Source of the DNA: Bacteroidia bacterium
GTDB lineage: Bacteria > Bacteroidota > Bacteroidia > B-17B0 > Aurantibacillaceae
Length of the DNA stretch: 64,000 bases
Direction: 5' to 3'
NCBI GenBank assembly: GCA_016787785.1
Contig: JAEUTO010000011.1
Span: 496,001 to 560,000 of the forward strand
Notes under the pieces: generated by a model
Databases searched by the model: none
Told to the model about the DNA's origin: nothing
What the model saw: only the letters and a program-made list of their open reading frames with translations
Translations under genes and position numbers: made by a program
Part shown: positions 43,643-51,407 of the stretch, one piece after another
Layout: each line of letters begins with the position of its first letter
How positions within the stretch are numbered: position 1 is the first letter of the stretch

Positions 43643-44614
43643 CTATTTCTTTTTTAGTTCCCTTAAGAGCATATCTTTTTTATATTGTTCAACATCCCAT
43701 TTTAGCTGCCAGTTGCTTATATACTCTGCCATTGGTGGCAAGAAAACTTCAGCTCTGCGTTTATCCACATTGTCCGGGTCTTCTAAGGGTAAAACATATA
43801 AAATACCAGTTTCATCATCGCGTCCAAGCTGGCTTCCATAAATCTGCTTTTTATTTTGGCCTATTGCAACTCTATCCTCTAATAAAGCAAGATCTTTACT
43901 TGCAGCTTTACGATTTTTTACTGCTTCGCGCATCATCGGTAAGTATTTTTCCTGTATTTTTTGATCTGAGTGCTGAATAACCAAAAACAACGTTGAGCTT
44001 CCTCGACCTCCAATAATATCAGGACCAAGCCACCCATATTGATCTAAAATTTTTGTTATAAATATAACATTTGATGCGTCTTTTTCACTTATGATCTGCC
44101 AAAGGCTATCCATTTGCTTAGAATTGTGTCCATATTTTTTTTCAATAACATCTACCTGTAATCTGTAATGCTGGTCTTCAAAATCAATACTATCTAGCGT
44201 TTTTACGAGAGGTTTGTTTAGTTTAGCTTCCGCTTTTTCTTTATTTTGCTTAACAGTTTCAATCAAAGGTGCCCATCTTGGATCAGAATGTAAAGTAGTA
44301 AAATCCTTATCTGAAGTTATAGTAATGAGATCCTTATACTTACCCTGGATAACAATTCGATTTAAATGAAAAAAAGCGCTGTCTGGATACTTTGCTAAGG
44401 CCCAGGAACAAGCAGCGCTGTATCGGTCCTTCTCATAAGCTTTTCCCTCGTTTTCTTTAAACGCAGATGAAAAAAATAGCGCTGAACTTTTGTACTCTTT
44501 AGCGTAATAAAGTGAATCCGCCTTTTTTATTAAGTCAAAATATCTGGCAGGAGGTCTTTGACTATAAAAACTGAATGTAAATAAAACACCAAAGAAAAGG
44601 AGCAAGTTTTTCAT
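43643..44614 (-). CDS. Secreted DUF6624-type protein at the end of the peptide-maturation locus
   Basis: A 323-residue protein with a signal peptide (MKNLLLFFGVLFTFSFYSQ). TPR-like helices fill the N-terminal half, and a conserved block follows (QYGWLGPDIIGGRGSSTLFLVIQHSD...YLPMMREAVKNRKAASKDLALLEDRV...QIYGSQLG), which I recognise as DUF6624. Such genes are often found beside grasp-with-spasm peptide systems. It follows the SPASM gene on the same strand after 59 bases. Its role there is unknown. Confidence 0.75.
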   Translation of the reverse strand: MKNLLLFFGVLFTFSFYSQRPPARYFDLIKKADSLYYAKEYKSSALFFSSAFKENEGKAYEKDRYSAACSWALAKYPDSAFFHLNRIVIQGKYKDLITITSDKDFTTLHSDPRWAPLIETVKQNKEKAEAKLNKPLVKTLDSIDFEDQHYRLQVDVIEKKYGHNSKQMDSLWQIISEKDASNVIFITKILDQYGWLGPDIIGGRGSSTLFLVIQHSDQKIQEKYLPMMREAVKNRKAASKDLALLEDRVAIGQNKKQIYGSQLGRDDETGILYVLPLEDPDNVDKRRAEVFLPPMAEYISNWQLKWDVEQYKKDMLLRELKKK

Positions 44615-44673: not shown

Positions 44674-45693
44674 TTATCTTAGGCCATAGTACTCGATTGC
44701 TTTTGCCTTAAGAGGGTTCGTGCTCCAATCGTCCCAAGAGCCAGTATATGGATCGTACCCACATTTTAAAGGCTTACTGTATAGATCACTTGGGTCTTCA
44801 GTAAACGCCCTACAGTCAGTGCAAACGTGTCTGTACTCACAATCTTTGCATACTTTTATATCGGCTTTTTTTATGCCCCACAATTTTTTAAAACCAGGTT
44901 TATTTACCGCTTCTGCTAATTTCGTATCTTTTATATTACCAAAATTTTCTTTCATACAGGGGCAGTTTTTAATATTACCTGATGAATCTATATTTATTTT
45001 TCGGTTTAAACATGTATTGTTCTGTTGTGATTCAGTGAACAAGGATAAGTTTATATTAAAATTTTCTTCTTTTATAAGACCGCAGCACTTATTACCAAAT
45101 GGCATATTTCTAACTATTAAAACGTCTTTAAACTCATTTAAAAATATGGAGTCGTTACAATTAAATACTTTTATCTTATTTTGTAACCTTGGTGACATTA
45201 AAAGTTTATTTATGAATTCGTTTAGCTTTTCACTTTTAAAATAATTTATAACTAGATCAAAACTAATAATTGAATACCCCAATAGGGCGGTTTCTAATAT
45301 TTCAACATCTTTATCGCATATATTTTCAGAAATGATAAAGGTATAGTAGAAACAATTCAATTGTTCTAAATCGCTCAAGATTTTTCCAATGGCAGAAACA
45401 TTTTTTTTATTAATTTCTATAACAGCATTTGAGATTGTTGCTGGTAAATCCCATTCTAAATTTAAGTCAGGAAAAAGTAGCTCTTCATCTGAGTCAATTC
45501 TAAAAATTATTTCTTTTTTAAGGAGTTCATCCAATAATACAATATCCTGATCTTTTAAACTTTCATTTTTAAGAGACTCAATAAATGCAGTTACTTTTTT
45601 TGGCAATACTGTCATTTGATCCCTACCAAAATCAATAAGTAAGTCTCTGGTATAACCTTTTGTTATAATATTGTCAGGAAAAATTTTGTACAT
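44674..45693 (-). CDS. gwsS: Grasp-with-spasm system SPASM-domain protein
   Basis: A 339-residue protein with a SPASM-type cysteine set in the C-terminal third: Cys228, Cys244, Cys246, then Cys282, Cys285, Cys291, Cys294 and Cys311 (pattern CKDCEYRHVCTDC). No CxxxCxxC radical-SAM motif is seen in the N-terminal part, which fits my knowledge of the grasp-with-spasm SPASM family. It is presumed to bind the precursor and help the ATP-grasp enzyme. Its ATG abuts the stop of the 51-codon gene upstream (TAG-ATG), so translation is coupled. Confidence 0.85.
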   Translation of the reverse strand: MYKIFPDNIITKGYTRDLLIDFGRDQMTVLPKKVTAFIESLKNESLKDQDIVLLDELLKKEIIFRIDSDEELLFPDLNLEWDLPATISNAVIEINKKNVSAIGKILSDLEQLNCFYYTFIISENICDKDVEILETALLGYSIISFDLVINYFKSEKLNEFINKLLMSPRLQNKIKVFNCNDSIFLNEFKDVLIVRNMPFGNKCCGLIKEENFNINLSLFTESQQNNTCLNRKINIDSSGNIKNCPCMKENFGNIKDTKLAEAVNKPGFKKLWGIKKADIKVCKDCEYRHVCTDCRAFTEDPSDLYSKPLKCGYDPYTGSWDDWSTNPLKAKAIEYYGLR

Positions 45694-45849
45694 CTAGAAT
45701 TGAGTTATACATTTATAAAAAGGCCTTTCTCTTATCTTTAATCTAGGCATGACCTTCATTTCATTAAATCTTGTATTTATTAAGCCGGTTATTGGTTTTA
45801 TTTTTAATTTAGAAAACCCTATTGGTTTTTCAGTTTTTAAATTTTTCAT
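45694..45849 (-). CDS. 51-residue basic protein wedged between the two maturase genes
   Basis: An ATG-started 51-codon frame. Its start overlaps the ATP-grasp gene stop as ATGA (45849-45846), and its TAG stop directly abuts the SPASM gene ATG at 45693. The product begins MKNLKTEKPIGFSKLKIKPI, is strongly basic (13 Lys/Arg-rich positions), has MPRLKIRERPFYKC near the end and one Cys. No signal peptide or membrane segment. The tight fit on both sides argues that it is a real gene. It could be a second precursor, a chaperone or leader-binding helper. I recognise no family. Confidence 0.7.
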   Translation of the reverse strand: MKNLKTEKPIGFSKLKIKPITGLINTRFNEMKVMPRLKIRERPFYKCITQF

Positions 45850-46793
45850 GTACATATTAATTCCGAAATTTTTTTATCTAAGTGATAGTTTCCAAAGTAA
45901 GAAACGTTTCCAAATTGCCCGATTGGATTAATTTCTAGAAAATAAATTTTTTTATCATGCCCATATATTAAATCAATTGAACAATATTTGAGATTTAAAT
46001 CCACAATTAAAGCCTGTAATTTCTTTTGTACACTTTCAGGCAGTTGGAATGGAATTTGTCTGTTAGGGAGCGCTCTATCATAGTTTCTAGAGTCGATTTT
46101 AGTTTGATCATTATTTTGTGACACAACTGCGATAGAGTAAAATTTATTATCCAGAAAGAAAACCCTGACGTCAAATTTTTTGGTTATTAATTTTTGGAAA
46201 AAAGTGGGATGAAAATTTTCTCCAAGACTCGCAACATCATCGCGTGTTAGCTCTTCTGTATAACTAAAGTAATTATTCCCACTTACTTCATAGCTATAAC
46301 TTGATAAAATGATTTTCGTAATAACTTGTTTATGTGTTTCTCGAAAACTTACTAGGTCTGATTTTTGTGAAGTAAAGATGTATTCGGGAATTAATAGATT
46401 AAATTTACTCGCTTTATCAAGTATTATTAATTTATTCAAGTCTGCAAGTTGTGGATGCCCCAAATGATCAATTTGTTTTATTTTATGGTAAAGATATTGT
46501 CTGATAATCTTGTTTTCCTTCGTTAAAAAATCAACTACATTATCGCTGTGTTCTTTATGAATTTCTGGCGTAATTAAAATATCACCTTGTCTGTAAAAAA
46601 TTTTACTAATACTATTTAAGTCAATTTCATATCCACCAGTAATATTTTTTATTACCATAGAATCCCCTTCAATTTTGACTAGTCTTACAACATCTTCCCC
46701 GTACAAGATTTTAAAGGGTTTTTTCATATGTAGAAGCCATTGACATATACTAGGAGTTATAGGGTCATGATCAATGCTTATTAGAAGGATCAT
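45846..46793 (-). CDS. gwsG: Grasp-with-spasm system ATP-grasp peptide maturase
   Basis: A 315-residue ATP-grasp ligase of the graspetide type, expected to form ester or amide crosslinks between side chains of a precursor peptide. Visible: N-terminal pre-ATP-grasp fold (ILLISIDHDPITPSICQWL), RQGDILITPE, the nucleotide-binding strand QVITKIILSSYSYEV, and the C-terminal metal/ATP site YCSIDLIYGHDKKIYFLEINPIGQFG (ExN motif). The precursor gene lies 46 bases upstream, and the 51-codon gene overlaps its stop. Confidence 0.87.
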   Translation of the reverse strand: MILLISIDHDPITPSICQWLLHMKKPFKILYGEDVVRLVKIEGDSMVIKNITGGYEIDLNSISKIFYRQGDILITPEIHKEHSDNVVDFLTKENKIIRQYLYHKIKQIDHLGHPQLADLNKLIILDKASKFNLLIPEYIFTSQKSDLVSFRETHKQVITKIILSSYSYEVSGNNYFSYTEELTRDDVASLGENFHPTFFQKLITKKFDVRVFFLDNKFYSIAVVSQNNDQTKIDSRNYDRALPNRQIPFQLPESVQKKLQALIVDLNLKYCSIDLIYGHDKKIYFLEINPIGQFGNVSYFGNYHLDKKISELICT

Positions 46794-46839: not shown

Positions 46840-47082
46840 TTAATATGGAAGTGGGTCGGTGCAATCCTCTACTATTGTCCCGTTATCACCAGTAGTGACG
46901 TATCGCGTATCTACAATACAATTCCAAGCATCGTATGAGGGAGACGCTACTGTACCTCCGGAACATCTATCAGCAAAATCCCAATCATTTATTAATTGTC
47001 TTCTCGATGGGTTTCGGACAGGGTTTAAAACGTATCTAGTATTTAAAGTAGGAACTTCTTTCAATTTCTCTTTTTTCTTCAT
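46840..47082 (-). CDS. gwsA: Grasp-with-spasm precursor peptide
   Basis: An 80-residue peptide immediately upstream of the ATP-grasp gene. The N-terminal half is a basic leader (MKKKEKLKEVPTLNTRYVLN...NPSRRQLINDWDFADRC). The C-terminal core is rich in Thr, Ser, Asp and Glu, the residues that graspetide ligases join: DAWNCIVDTRYVTTGDNG then TIVEDCTDPLPY. Three Cys (around 40, 55 and 74) are present. The assignment rests on position, size and composition. Confidence 0.75.
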   Translation of the reverse strand: MKKKEKLKEVPTLNTRYVLNPVRNPSRRQLINDWDFADRCSGGTVASPSYDAWNCIVDTRYVTTGDNGTIVEDCTDPLPY

Positions 47083-47114: not shown

Positions 47115-47909
47115 TTACGGGACATAGTCCCAATCGTTACCAGTTACTGTAATATCAAACTCTTCGGCATTTTCGGTTGAAGCAAAAATTTGATAGTCTG
47201 CTTGCAACTCAAAATTGTTTTCAAAATCAATTTCATGCGTAAATGATAAATCGGAGCCAGATGGCTTTACACCCAGCACAACTACTTCGGTATAAAGAAA
47301 TTTTGTAGTTCCATTATAAATAAACAGCCTTACCATACCCGGTGTTGTTAAAGTATCATCCGCCTTAATGATTATAGATGTAAGGCTAGATCCTTTATAG
47401 GTTAAAGAACTACCAGCTGAATAAACGCTTGTTAATGTTCCAGTGCCATCTAAATTAGAATTTGCTGTGTTAGGCAAGCCATAACCTAGTTTTGTATGGT
47501 ACATGGTGGTATCTGTTCTTACGGAGGGGGCATAATACACCCATTCTAAGGTTTCCGCAATAATGTTAAACGATTCGGCGTTTTCGGTTGCAGCCATTAA
47601 TTCATAACCGGCCTTTAACTCAAAATTTAGTACTAAGGTGGTTTGAAATGTCGGTCGCGAAGCAGCTTTTGTTATTGCCGGTACTAAAATCTCCTTTAAT
47701 AGTACTTTACTGCTTGTATTATTAATAAATAAACGCACCACGCCGGCGGTGGTATTTTGTATTGCCTTTACTGTAACTGCTTTTATCAATGCGCCGTTCG
47801 AACCGCTTCTTATAACTGTAGTTATTGTGCCGGTACCATCTAAATTTGGATTAGCGGTGCTAATAGTTACTAAGCCTGTTTTTGCTGTATATTGTGTTTC
47901 TTCTGCCAT
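47115..47909 (-). CDS. Two-copy beta-domain protein (paralog 1)
   Basis: A 264-residue protein made of two tandem copies of a domain of about 130 residues. Each begins YTAKTG/YHTKLG, continues ANxNLDGTGT, IIKAxxxTTxGxVRLFIxNxT, and ends AESFNIIAETLEWVYY or AEEFDITVTGNDWDYVP. No signal peptide. It is 32 bases upstream of the precursor-peptide gene on the same strand and is likely in the same transcript. The fold looks beta-sandwich-like, as in some virion or fibre proteins, but I recognise no named family. Confidence 0.75.
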   Translation of the reverse strand: MAEETQYTAKTGLVTISTANPNLDGTGTITTVIRSGSNGALIKAVTVKAIQNTTAGVVRLFINNTSSKVLLKEILVPAITKAASRPTFQTTLVLNFELKAGYELMAATENAESFNIIAETLEWVYYAPSVRTDTTMYHTKLGYGLPNTANSNLDGTGTLTSVYSAGSSLTYKGSSLTSIIIKADDTLTTPGMVRLFIYNGTTKFLYTEVVVLGVKPSGSDLSFTHEIDFENNFELQADYQIFASTENAEEFDITVTGNDWDYVP

Positions 47910-47953
47910 TTGTTTTTAAGTTTATTATCAACTCATAAAAATATTTATTTAGT

Positions 47954-48745
47954 CTAGGCAGGGTATTTCCAATCATTTCCTTCTACTGTAATGTGAAAAG
48001 ATTCGGCATTTTGTGTTGATGCTTTTATAAGATAATCGGGTTTCAGTTGAAAACCTTCAACATCTACCTTACATTCAAATGCTGCTTGGGTTGCCGATTT
48101 TGTTATGGCTGGTATCATTACCTCTTTAAAAATTCGAGTGTTGGTTCCATCGTAAATATATAAACGTATCATACCTGCCGTAGTTGTAACTATGCCTTTA
48201 ATGGTAAGCGATTCAATTCTGCAACCTTTCCAACCTGAAGCCGAAGGCCCGGTAGTTAAGACCGTAACAACTGTACCTGTTCCATCTAAATTTGAGTTAG
48301 CAGTAGATACTAAGCCCGTACCTGTATTTGCCGTAAAATTGGTGCTTTCTGGTCTAACAGCTCCACCATAATACGCCCAATCCAAACCCTCGGCTATTAT
48401 GTTAAACGATTCGGCTTTCTCAGTACTTGCTTTAAGCACTTGTCCCGATTTTAATTTTATGTCACAATTCCATTTATATTGTACTGCTGGGTTAACAGAG
48501 GATTTTGTATTTGCCTCTACTGGAATCTCTTTTATTAACCTTGTATTTGTACCGTCAAAAATAAATAGCCTTATCATACCCTGTGTGGTAGTAACAAGTG
48601 ATTTTACTGTTATCGATTTTATTAGCGTGCCGTTTGAGGCGGCGGTTAAAACAGTTCCTAAAGTTCCCGTTCCATCAAGGTTTGCGTTTGCGGTTGCAAT
48701 GTTTGCCATTCCGGTGTTTGCTGTGTATTGGGTTTCTGCTGCCAT
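47954..48745 (-). CDS. Two-copy beta-domain protein (paralog 2)
   Basis: A 263-residue paralog of the product at 47115-47909, again with two copies of the domain (MAAETQYTANTGMANIATAN, then STNFTANTGTGLVSTANSN). Both end in AESFNIIAEGLDWAYY or AESFHITVEGNDWKYPA. The start MAAETQY parallels MAEETQY of the next gene. It is 44 bases upstream of paralog 1. The high similarity points to recent duplication. Confidence 0.75.
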   Translation of the reverse strand: MAAETQYTANTGMANIATANANLDGTGTLGTVLTAASNGTLIKSITVKSLVTTTQGMIRLFIFDGTNTRLIKEIPVEANTKSSVNPAVQYKWNCDIKLKSGQVLKASTEKAESFNIIAEGLDWAYYGGAVRPESTNFTANTGTGLVSTANSNLDGTGTVVTVLTTGPSASGWKGCRIESLTIKGIVTTTAGMIRLYIYDGTNTRIFKEVMIPAITKSATQAAFECKVDVEGFQLKPDYLIKASTQNAESFHITVEGNDWKYPA

Positions 48746-48792
48746 TTTTTTTCTTTTTAAATTTATTTTTAAATTAGATTCTTTTGAATGAA

Positions 48793-49212
48793 TTAATAAG
48801 AGGCGTCTAAAGCCTCAACTGTTATCATAAACGACTCAGCGTTTCCTAACCAGGCAATTAATGTTGCCGACGGCTGAACATAATAATTAACCTCATAAGA
48901 TACCTCAAAGGCTGGACAGATACTCGATTTTACAACTGCATCAATTGCTATTTCATCTACCAAAGTATAGTTGCCCCCACCGACGTCTGAATAAATAAAA
49001 ATTTTCCCCTTTGTTGTATTGCCAGTAGCTTTTACGGTTATAGTTTTTATCAAAGAGCCATTGCTTGCACCTGTAATTAATGTGTAAATCGTTCCGGTAG
49101 CTGTACAGGCAGTACTTTGTGTGTTGCTAGTATATTTTACACGTTGATTAATATTTGTAGTAACTCCACTTTCTTTAAGGGAATCCCCTGTATTTATATA
49201 TTCTACTAGCAT
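48793..49212 (-). CDS. Single-copy beta-domain protein (paralog 3, first gene of the cluster)
   Basis: A 139-residue protein carrying one copy of the same domain (VKYTSNTQSTACTATGTIYTLI, TTKGKIFIYSDVGGG, AESFMITVEALDASY). The start at 49212 is chosen because it sits about 12 bases after the expected transcription start of the promoter at 49224-49253; a start at 49329 would run through that promoter. As the first gene of the run it may be the ancestral unit from which the two-copy paralogs grew. Confidence 0.7.
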   Translation of the reverse strand: MLVEYINTGDSLKESGVTTNINQRVKYTSNTQSTACTATGTIYTLITGASNGSLIKTITVKATGNTTKGKIFIYSDVGGGNYTLVDEIAIDAVVKSSICPAFEVSYEVNYYVQPSATLIAWLGNAESFMITVEALDASY

Positions 49213-49223
49213 ATTTAATTTTT

Positions 49224-49253
49224 TTAAAGTAAAGGAATAATGACTTAAACAAA
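49224..49253 (-). promoter_or_regulatory. Promoter of the beta-domain/grasp-with-spasm gene run
   Basis: Minus-strand TTTG (49253-49250), an 18-base spacer and TACTTTAA (49231-49224). It points into the gene at 49212 and could serve the whole run down to 43643. Confidence 0.5.
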
Positions 49254-49362
49254 ATACGTTCAGAAAAACCGGAATGTCAACTGGGTAAATGCCTAGATAT
49301 GCTACTGGCGAATTAGATAATGACGACACTATCTATTTCACTAGGTAATATTGTTTAAAATG

Positions 49363-50129: not shown

Positions 50130-51407
50130 TCATAATCTCTTACAGCAAATTGTATTTTTAGCCTTTTTGCATCTGTTTTTTCTTGCTTTTTTCCATTGTT
50201 CATTTATCCATTCGGCTTTTGATGGTAAACCATTATAGAGTTCATAAGGAGTTTGTCCATTTATACACTCCATGCGTTTAATGTAGTTATGTTCTTTTAT
50301 TGCAAAACCAACTGCCGAGATTAATGCTTTTAGCGTGTAAATATTTTCTCTGTATAGATACATGTACTTTAAATCCATGTTATATCTTTCAATCATTGAA
50401 TTTGAAAATACAATATCCTTTTTGGCATATTTAATATCCACATTTGTAAACCCCTTGAAAAATTTTTTGACTTTGTTGTTTTTATTCTCGCTACCAGAAT
50501 CTGTAATAAAAGAAATTTTAATATTTGATTCCGGGTCAATGTCGGAGAGTGAATGTTGAAAGGTTTCGATTCGAGTATCAGCAGCTATTTTATCAGAAAT
50601 TGCCCATGACTTAATATATTTAGAATAATTATCTTTTACTAGGTAGATATAATAAGTTTCACCATTTTTTAATTTAAAGTATGTAATATCTGCATGAAGG
50701 TATTGGTTGGGATAGTCTGCCTTTAAAGATTTTGAAGAATACCTTTTTCTTTTTTTTGGTTTTAGTCTTACAATCTTATATCGTCTTTGAAGTCTTCGCC
50801 AACTAGTCCTTGTTGCGTGAACAATATTTTCATGATGCGCTTTCCAGACAAGTGAACTTATAGGGAAATGTTCAAATCGCGGATCCTGAAGTAACTGAAG
50901 GATTTTAAATTCTTCTTCCAAGGTAATTTGATTTGGAGATCTTTTAATGCAAGTTAACCTGCTGGAATGTCGGCAATCATCCTTCGCAAGCGTTTTCCAT
51001 TCATAATAAGTCATATTGTTGATGTTTAACAATTCGGAACATCTTTTTACACCTATAGCTTTTTTGTTGCTTTCAACAAAATCTACAATTTGCGCTCTGT
51101 TTTCGTAAATGAGTTTACGATACTCTTTGCCACTTGAAGCAATCTTTATTGCTAACGACAAAACTTCATTCTCAGCTTTCAAGTTTTTTAAAGACTCATT
51201 AACAGATTCTTTTAGTACATCAATTTCGTGGTTTAATTTTCTAATATTTTTTTCTTGTTTATTATAATAATCAAACCCAATCAATTTGTTCCAGTTTTCT
51301 TTTTTCCACGCATATACCATATTGGATTTTACTATTTTCTTAAATTTACTTGGTATTTTTCCGTTTACGGCGTCTAGTTTTAACCTGAAATCATAAGTTC
51401 TTATCAT
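50130..51407 (-). CDS. DDE-type integrase-core transposase
   Basis: A 425-residue single-frame transposase. N-terminal HTH and coiled-coil part (about 1-110), HTH_21-like segment (KAIGVKRCSELLNINNMTYYEWK), and an rve catalytic core with Asp in LHADITYFK, Asp in FITDSGSENK and Glu in NSMIERYN, about 36 residues after the second Asp. It resembles IS3-group cores but is not split into two overlapping frames. No clear terminal inverted repeats or target duplication could be found at 50069-50129 or 51408-51480. The frame is intact. Confidence 0.8.
   Translation of the reverse strand: MIRTYDFRLKLDAVNGKIPSKFKKIVKSNMVYAWKKENWNKLIGFDYYNKQEKNIRKLNHEIDVLKESVNESLKNLKAENEVLSLAIKIASSGKEYRKLIYENRAQIVDFVESNKKAIGVKRCSELLNINNMTYYEWKTLAKDDCRHSSRLTCIKRSPNQITLEEEFKILQLLQDPRFEHFPISSLVWKAHHENIVHATRTSWRRLQRRYKIVRLKPKKRKRYSSKSLKADYPNQYLHADITYFKLKNGETYYIYLVKDNYSKYIKSWAISDKIAADTRIETFQHSLSDIDPESNIKISFITDSGSENKNNKVKKFFKGFTNVDIKYAKKDIVFSNSMIERYNMDLKYMYLYRENIYTLKALISAVGFAIKEHNYIKRMECINGQTPYELYNGLPSKAEWINEQWKKARKNRCKKAKNTICCKRL

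Follow-up and report, generated by a model that had tools for sequence, protein, structure and literature searches.

A small coupled gene between gwsG and gwsS that probably encodes a divergent LPL-type accessory protein of a grasp-with-spasm operon

The gws operon and its small gene

The window, as we call the whole 64,000-nt stretch of DNA analyzed here, carries on its minus strand, in this order, the genes for an 80-aa candidate precursor, GwsG, a small protein, GwsS and a DUF6624 protein. The gwsG gene (45,846–46,793, minus strand) encodes an ATP-grasp graspetide synthetase, which matches TIGR04192 with 247.7 bits (cut-off 230) and has the PDB relatives MdnC (5ig9), AMdnB (7m4s) and CdnC (7mgv). 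The gwsS gene (44,674–45,693, minus strand; TIGR04193, 287.5 bits, cut-off 175) encodes a SPASM protein with a predicted N-terminal RRE, a degenerate radical-SAM part and a SPASM domain with seven cysteines. The DUF6624 gene (43,643–44,614, minus strand; PF20329, 90.3 bits) lies 59 nt downstream of gwsS and probably belongs to the same operon; DUF6624 is reported to occur in other graspetide groups (PMC13097080). At one related locus (L010), a gene that by eye resembles the DUF6624 gene precedes the small gene.

The candidate precursor (46,840–47,082, minus strand) was assigned from its place upstream of gwsG and from its sequence, in which GG at residues 42–43 is followed by a stretch containing Cys, Thr and Asp. 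It has no credible match in family libraries and no convincing relative in 87 genomes of the window's family, the best other match (E 0.017) lying within a 759-codon frame. Just upstream of it, three adjacent proteins of 264, 263 and 178 aa, with internal repeats that look similar by eye, are encoded at 47,115–49,329 (minus strand); none of them gave a convincing match in Pfam, NCBIfam or PHROGs. Also near the operon is a gene for a transposase-like protein with an integrase core (rve; 50,130–51,407, minus strand), a hint of mobility.

The small gene (45,694–45,849, minus strand) has 51 codons and a TAG stop. Direct reading of the letters bears out how the first-pass annotation had described its ends: the start codon ATG (45,849–45,847) shares the string ATGA with the gwsG stop TGA (45,848–45,846), and the TAG (45,696–45,694) abuts the gwsS ATG (45,693–45,691) with a spacing of 0 nt. 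A second in-frame ATG at 45,855 would extend the gene to 53 codons. The product is indeed basic (13 Lys/Arg versus 3 Glu) with one Cys, and has no match in NCBIfam or Pfam at E 1.

Conservation of the small gene and its family

Small proteins encoded at this place have been in print since 2022, when Makarova et al. named the LPL family, 116 proteins whose genes immediately precede the SPASM gene, and proposed that they act as PqqD-like chaperones (PMC8939145). We collected relatives of the window locus by searching with TIGR04193, which matched in 14 of the 87 genomes of the window's family (10 over the cut-off) and in 42 of 395 genomes of its class (28 over the cut-off); a scan of named genomes gave at least 79 further loci. 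The resulting 125 gwsG–gwsS pairs were reduced to 119 by removing six exact duplicates, some near-duplicates remaining. The pairing itself is regular: all 36 over-cut-off TIGR04192 places in the 395 genomes have a downstream TIGR04193 match, some below the cut-off (compared by eye).

The first-pass annotation had pointed to such relatives as the place to look for a conserved small frame and for directly adjacent enzyme genes. The frame is conserved: a candidate of at least 20 aa lies in the gap of all 119 pairs, and in none of the 118 measured gaps are the enzyme genes directly adjacent, the shortest gap being 106 nt. Only three gaps exceed 1 kb (L010, L027 and L071b). From the end of the small gene to gwsS the distance is 954 nt in L027, where the small gene follows gwsG and another frame separates it from gwsS, and 828 nt in L071b; these two loci qualify the published statement that the small gene is "always" directly upstream of the SPASM gene.

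It might be argued that the frame is no protein gene, but an unused frame that persists because gwsS is translationally coupled to gwsG. The window by itself lends this some credit, as 4 of 100 dinucleotide-shuffled versions of its gap carry a comparable frame coupled at both ends; taken alone, the coupling seen in the window could be luck, but the first-pass claim that it goes beyond chance stands for the relatives. Counting as coupled any ATG frame of at least 40 aa whose start lies no more than 40 nt from the gwsG stop and whose end lies no more than 40 nt from the gwsS start, we found one in 106 of the 115 gwsG–gwsS gaps of up to 400 nt, against 4.8 expected from shuffling and 2 on the antisense strand. 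Selection also argues for a protein. The dN/dS test that the annotation had proposed was run on LPL genes of relatives, in 27 pairs with similar GwsS, and gave values mostly well below 1: among the 25 pairs in which the ratio is defined, it ranges from 0 to 0.46 in 23 and is higher, at 0.53 and 0.82, in the remaining two, which have diverged very far. Close pairs gave 0.18 (L117/L127) and 0 (L007/L008, with four synonymous changes and no other), and Flavobacterium pairs, which are mutually non-independent and partly saturated, 0.07 to 0.46 with one infinite dS; two nearly identical pairs (L017/L018 and L057/L058) are uninformative. These values concern the relatives' genes, as no close relative of the window's small gene was found in the genomes searched. 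Moreover, the amino-acid motifs described below are kept with varied codons: all four Pro codons and several Ile and Ser codons are in use at the motif in 58 members, indicating constraint at the protein level. We therefore consider an unused frame extremely improbable.

An iterated profile, built with the window left out, picked up one frame, and no more, in each of 108 of the 119 pairs, from a total of 187 candidate frames. A repeat run with 558 shuffled decoys recruited three of them together with 111 of 186 real frames, so that a false recruit or two is possible among the real ones. In the 395 genomes the profile found 23 places at E ≤0.001, of which 22 lie beside a TIGR04193 match, a specificity that is partly circular because many profile rows come from those same genomes. 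Eleven pairs were not recruited. For five of them (the window, L016, L041 with one of its two frames, L042 and L100), no more than 0–7 of 1000 shuffles of the frame itself reach its score; the other six (L012, L040, L047, L048, L101 and L121b) do not clearly stand out, 31–217 of 1000 shuffles being as good.

Of 100 aligned LPL members, at most one is matched by any given Pfam or NCBIfam model at E 0.01. In annotated records of an Elizabethkingia and a Hymenobacter plasmid, the frame (58 and 68 aa) occupies a place without a listed gene, the gene table being stated to be incomplete. The conjecture that a part of the pathway had been skipped finds support: the small protein regularly accompanies the two enzymes of this RiPP pathway as a third component, and the curated libraries (Pfam, NCBIfam) miss it. 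Neither GwsG nor GwsS was seen naturally fused to the small protein; in the 11 loci inspected whose GwsS frame extends far upstream, that frame by eye contains no LPL sequence.

Some loci show peculiarities of their own. A decaying copy is present in the window's genus (L009 and L020, G020:C2): its gwsG is broken into two frames, its small gene is shortened to 28 aa, and there is also a second SPASM fragment, interrupted by a stop. Detached C-terminal SPASM pieces of about 50–98 aa lie beside gws loci in L009/L020, L023, L030 and L095, possibly as relics of duplicated gwsS genes. On a Hymenobacter plasmid (L144, 815–2,598), ten tandem, similar 47-aa GG precursors precede gwsG; nine of them are annotated as ComC/BlpC-type, and the gwsS of this locus merely as hypothetical.

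Whether the window protein itself is an LPL member is a borderline matter. Against the LPL profile it scores 9.5 bits (E 0.017 for 187 sequences), outside the inclusion threshold of 0.01. This score is equalled by 18 of 5000 shuffles and by 4 of 3351 background frames, one of the four being an LPL-like frame at the edge of L068, before a second gwsS. A whole-genome search with the LPL profile, which scored 15 of the genome's 31 first-look candidates, did not list the window protein at E 0.1. Its best Smith–Waterman match among 109 members is L123, with a score of 58 over an end-to-end alignment and only 1 of 300 shuffles as good. The alignment pairs P-I-G-F-S-K of the window with P-L-T-F-Q-K, and F-Y-K-C-I-T with F-Y-K-P-I-S. 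Accordingly, P-I-G-F-S-K-L (45,805–45,825, minus strand) is the putative counterpart of the relatives' N-terminal L-P-h-x-F/Y, and F-Y-K-C-I-T-Q-F (45,697–45,720, minus strand) that of their C-terminal F-Y-K-P-I-S-K; K-P-I-G-F stands where the LPL signature is expected. The frame has the placement of an LPL gene, between gwsG (TIGR04192) and gwsS (TIGR04193) and directly upstream of the latter, and, in keeping with the family, its product lacks a GG cleavage motif. An Elizabethkingia member sharing the string IRERP was also considered as a relative, but its match is equalled by 98 of 300 shuffles and is not used as evidence. On position and similarity, we file the window protein as a divergent, borderline LPL-type protein.

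The missing GG also bears on the suggestion of the first-pass annotation that the small protein is a second substrate, a precursor modified by GwsG and GwsS. Its size, its position and the conserved Lys/Ser/Thr near its C-terminus would suit a precursor. However, beyond Glu43 the window protein lacks acidic residues around the conserved Lys/Thr, GG occurs anywhere in only 5 of 108 LPL members, and separate GG precursors are encoded upstream of gwsG in 55 of the 75 loci with enough upstream sequence (80 putative precursors, picked by rule, a few of which look wrong). A second substrate is thus very improbable. What remains of the earlier reading is a real gene for a pathway component, with which the idea of a helper agrees. 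All in all, the frame is very probably a real, translationally coupled gene, and its product a divergent accessory subunit, of the LPL family, in the GwsG/GwsS graspetide maturase.

Motifs of the small protein and features of GwsS and GwsG

In the LPL alignment, the consensus retains LP close to the N-terminus and, at the C-terminal end, FYKPISKI. A strict C-terminal pattern, KP[IVY][STVIL][RKTIVSP], is present in 65 of the 119 proteins, many others deviating by a single position (FYRPISK or HKSISR, for example). At the N-terminal motif, 70 of 119 proteins have hydrophobic-P-h-x-h; relaxing this to P-h-x-h raises the count to 88 and leaves 31 without it. The motif sets the small proteins apart from the precursors: h-P-h-x-F/Y/W occurs within the first 35 residues of 45 of 108 LPL members and of none of the 80 rule-picked GG precursors. 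The published pattern Phhx(1,2)h separates them less well (15 of 108 versus 3 of 80).

LPL members are short (49–83 aa in the 100 scanned) and have no match to a solved structure at E 1. A model of one relative of the window protein (L120, from 100 sequences) is of low confidence (pLDDT 80, pTM 0.38); it features a helix at the N-terminus and, ahead of KPIS, a short hairpin, not the three strands followed by three helices of an RRE.

An RRE is predicted instead in GwsS. The AlphaFold2 model of the window GwsS (from 88 sequences) has a mean pLDDT of 91.5, and its first 75 residues or so (45,469–45,693, minus strand) comprise strands and then helices in the layout of an RRE. Leader-bound TbiB1 (5v1v) aligns to residues 1–67 of the model with an rmsd of 2.4 Å and a Z score of 5.2, middling on the tool's own scale. 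CteB (5wgg) aligns to residues 7–320 (Z 11.9) and TigE (8vpo) to residues 1–314 (Z 11.3); both, we assume, bear an N-terminal RRE. SuiB (Z 12.5) and PqqE (Z 12.3) cover residues 80–331 only. The PqqD model PF05402 was not found in the window GwsS at E 1, nor in the 88 GwsS sequences among the best 25 of 67 families. With no PqqD model among these sequence matches, the RRE of GwsS is a fold prediction.

Because of this prediction, we rate a PqqD-like role of the small protein lower. According to that proposal (PMC8939145), the small protein would bind the precursor leader and present it to GwsS, as PqqD presents PqqA to PqqE, and it is true that in most loci the small gene is directly upstream of the SPASM gene. 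Yet GwsS is predicted to have an N-terminal RRE of its own, the L120 model does not have the RRE layout, and in L027 and L071b the LPL gene is well removed from gwsS. In addition, none of 100 LPL members matches PF05402 at E 0.01, a weak argument, because this model does not appear for the RRE-like part of GwsS either, among the families listed. A chaperone of the PqqD type therefore seems quite unlikely.

We also looked for the radical-SAM cluster motif CxxxCxxC in residues 61–160 of the 88 GwsS sequences and did not find it in any. Together with the predicted RRE, this suggests that GwsS may be a substrate-binding scaffold rather than a radical enzyme. The SPASM cysteines fall into two sets, with seven in 100 loci and four in 15 (four short GwsS dropped); six or seven changes between the sets were counted on poorly supported trees.

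The end of the small protein varies with this cysteine set. The residue after KPIS is Lys or Arg in 89 of 95 loci with a seven-cysteine GwsS and in 2 of 13 with a four-cysteine GwsS (Fisher 2.5e-9, inflated by relatedness). In this count, four undefined residues (L043, L048, L121b and the window) were set by eye, and 11 of the 119 rows were dropped: the four short GwsS, two without a readable residue (L012 and L051) and five short GwsG. Without the four eye-set residues, and before the GwsG filter, the counts are 94 of 99 versus 1 of 10. The best tree, with support ignored, yields seven independent contrasts, of which five or six agree and none is opposite; well-supported branches alone leave only two contrasts, which is not significant. 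The window is an exception, with a seven-cysteine GwsS but Gln after CIT.

The N-terminal motif directs attention to GwsG. Makarova et al. pointed out a likeness between the LPL motif and Phhx(1,2)h, a leader motif missing from branch 5 precursors (PMC8939145), and microviridin ligases accept their leader in trans (PMC5934393, PMC7823629). The small protein might thus be a detached leader that switches on GwsG and has no role at GwsS, a possibility in line with its resemblance to a leader motif absent from the GG precursors and with L027, where its gene follows gwsG and another frame comes before gwsS. In MdnC, the acid pair E191/D192 binds an Arg of the leader (PMC7823629). At the corresponding positions of GwsG, both residues are acidic in 15 of 119 proteins and either one in 76, the window having D-D; between the pair and the basic residues of the LPL motif we saw no significant covariation (Fisher p 0.115). 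The mostly unconserved pair and the missing covariation count against a strict microviridin-like mechanism. They also count against activation of GwsG alone, as does the variation of the C-terminal motif with the cysteines of GwsS. We regard a role confined to GwsG as unlikely.

A possible adaptor between GwsS and GwsG, and comparison with known systems

That the small gene is real and that its product plays an accessory part is highly probable. As to the part itself, the explanation that we find best, and by a little the probable one, is that the small protein is a non-catalytic adaptor that docks on GwsS and primes GwsG, docking and priming being steps that we infer. In the full mechanism, the predicted N-terminal RRE of GwsS would hold the leader of the GG-type precursor, and GwsS, which lacks the radical-SAM cluster motif, may serve as a scaffold and not as a radical enzyme. 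The C-terminal FYK-x-I-S/T tail of the small protein would dock on GwsS, while the N-terminal P-h-x-F segment of the small protein, similar to the activating PFFARFL of microviridin leaders, would bind and prime GwsG. GwsG would thereby meet the captured precursor and become active, even though the precursor itself has no P-h-x-F-type motif. Covariation suggests the GwsS half of this bridge, whereas the GwsG half is proposed from motif resemblance only, and the bridge as a whole is a tentative proposal that we think somewhat improbable.

A further and rather doubtful idea is that the small protein is a natural leader split off from the precursors: a generic subunit that would supply the activating motif in trans, tethered by its KPISK tail to GwsS as an RRE-bearing, radical-SAM-like scaffold that has no cluster motif. 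If so, one ligase could process the many unrelated GG precursors of gws loci.

The adaptor reading shifts the question about the SPASM partner, with GwsS perhaps a substrate-binding scaffold and the small protein the link between scaffold and ligase. It would matter in practice as well. Grasp-with-spasm pathways reconstituted from annotation would express gwsG and gwsS and might omit the small subunit; should the subunit be required, a ligase tried without it would seem inactive, as MirB did without MirC (PMC13097080). In the literature searched we found no experiment on LPL small proteins. To the published family our analysis adds several points. One is a C-terminal FYKPISK-type motif besides the N-terminal P-h-x-F, put forward from the alignment; the string KPIS is absent from the main text of PMC8939145, but the motif may already stand in the family alignment of its supplement. 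The others are the predicted RRE of GwsS, which would speak against a PqqD role for the small protein, the absence of CxxxCxxC from residues 61–160 of 88 GwsS, and the basic residue ending KPISK, which follows the GwsS cysteine set with few independent contrasts.

Among known systems, the closest is the LPL family of graspetide branch 5 loci, likewise small proteins of Bacteroidota encoded between the genes for an ATP-grasp protein and a TIGR04193 SPASM protein and devoid of a GG site (PMC8939145). The window member differs in having K-P-I-G-F in place of L-P-L, a length of 51–53 aa and a score below the profile threshold. PqqD and other RREs resemble it as small helpers beside a SPASM-type RiPP protein; here, in contrast, the RRE is predicted inside GwsS, and for LPL proteins there is neither a match to an RRE family nor a prediction of its fold (low-confidence model). 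MirC of the rosaritide pathway (Carter et al. 2026, PMC13097080) is comparable as a partner that the graspetide synthetase there needs and co-purifies with, but as the paper describes it, MirC is set apart by RRE-like and SurA-like parts and by residues numbered to at least 315. Finally, the microviridin leader is normally part of the precursor, and the acid pair that binds it is mostly unconserved in GwsG; like the motif proposed here, however, its PFFARFL is a P-hydrophobic motif, one that activates the ATP-grasp ligases MdnC and MdnB and can work as a separate peptide (PMC7823629, PMC5934393).
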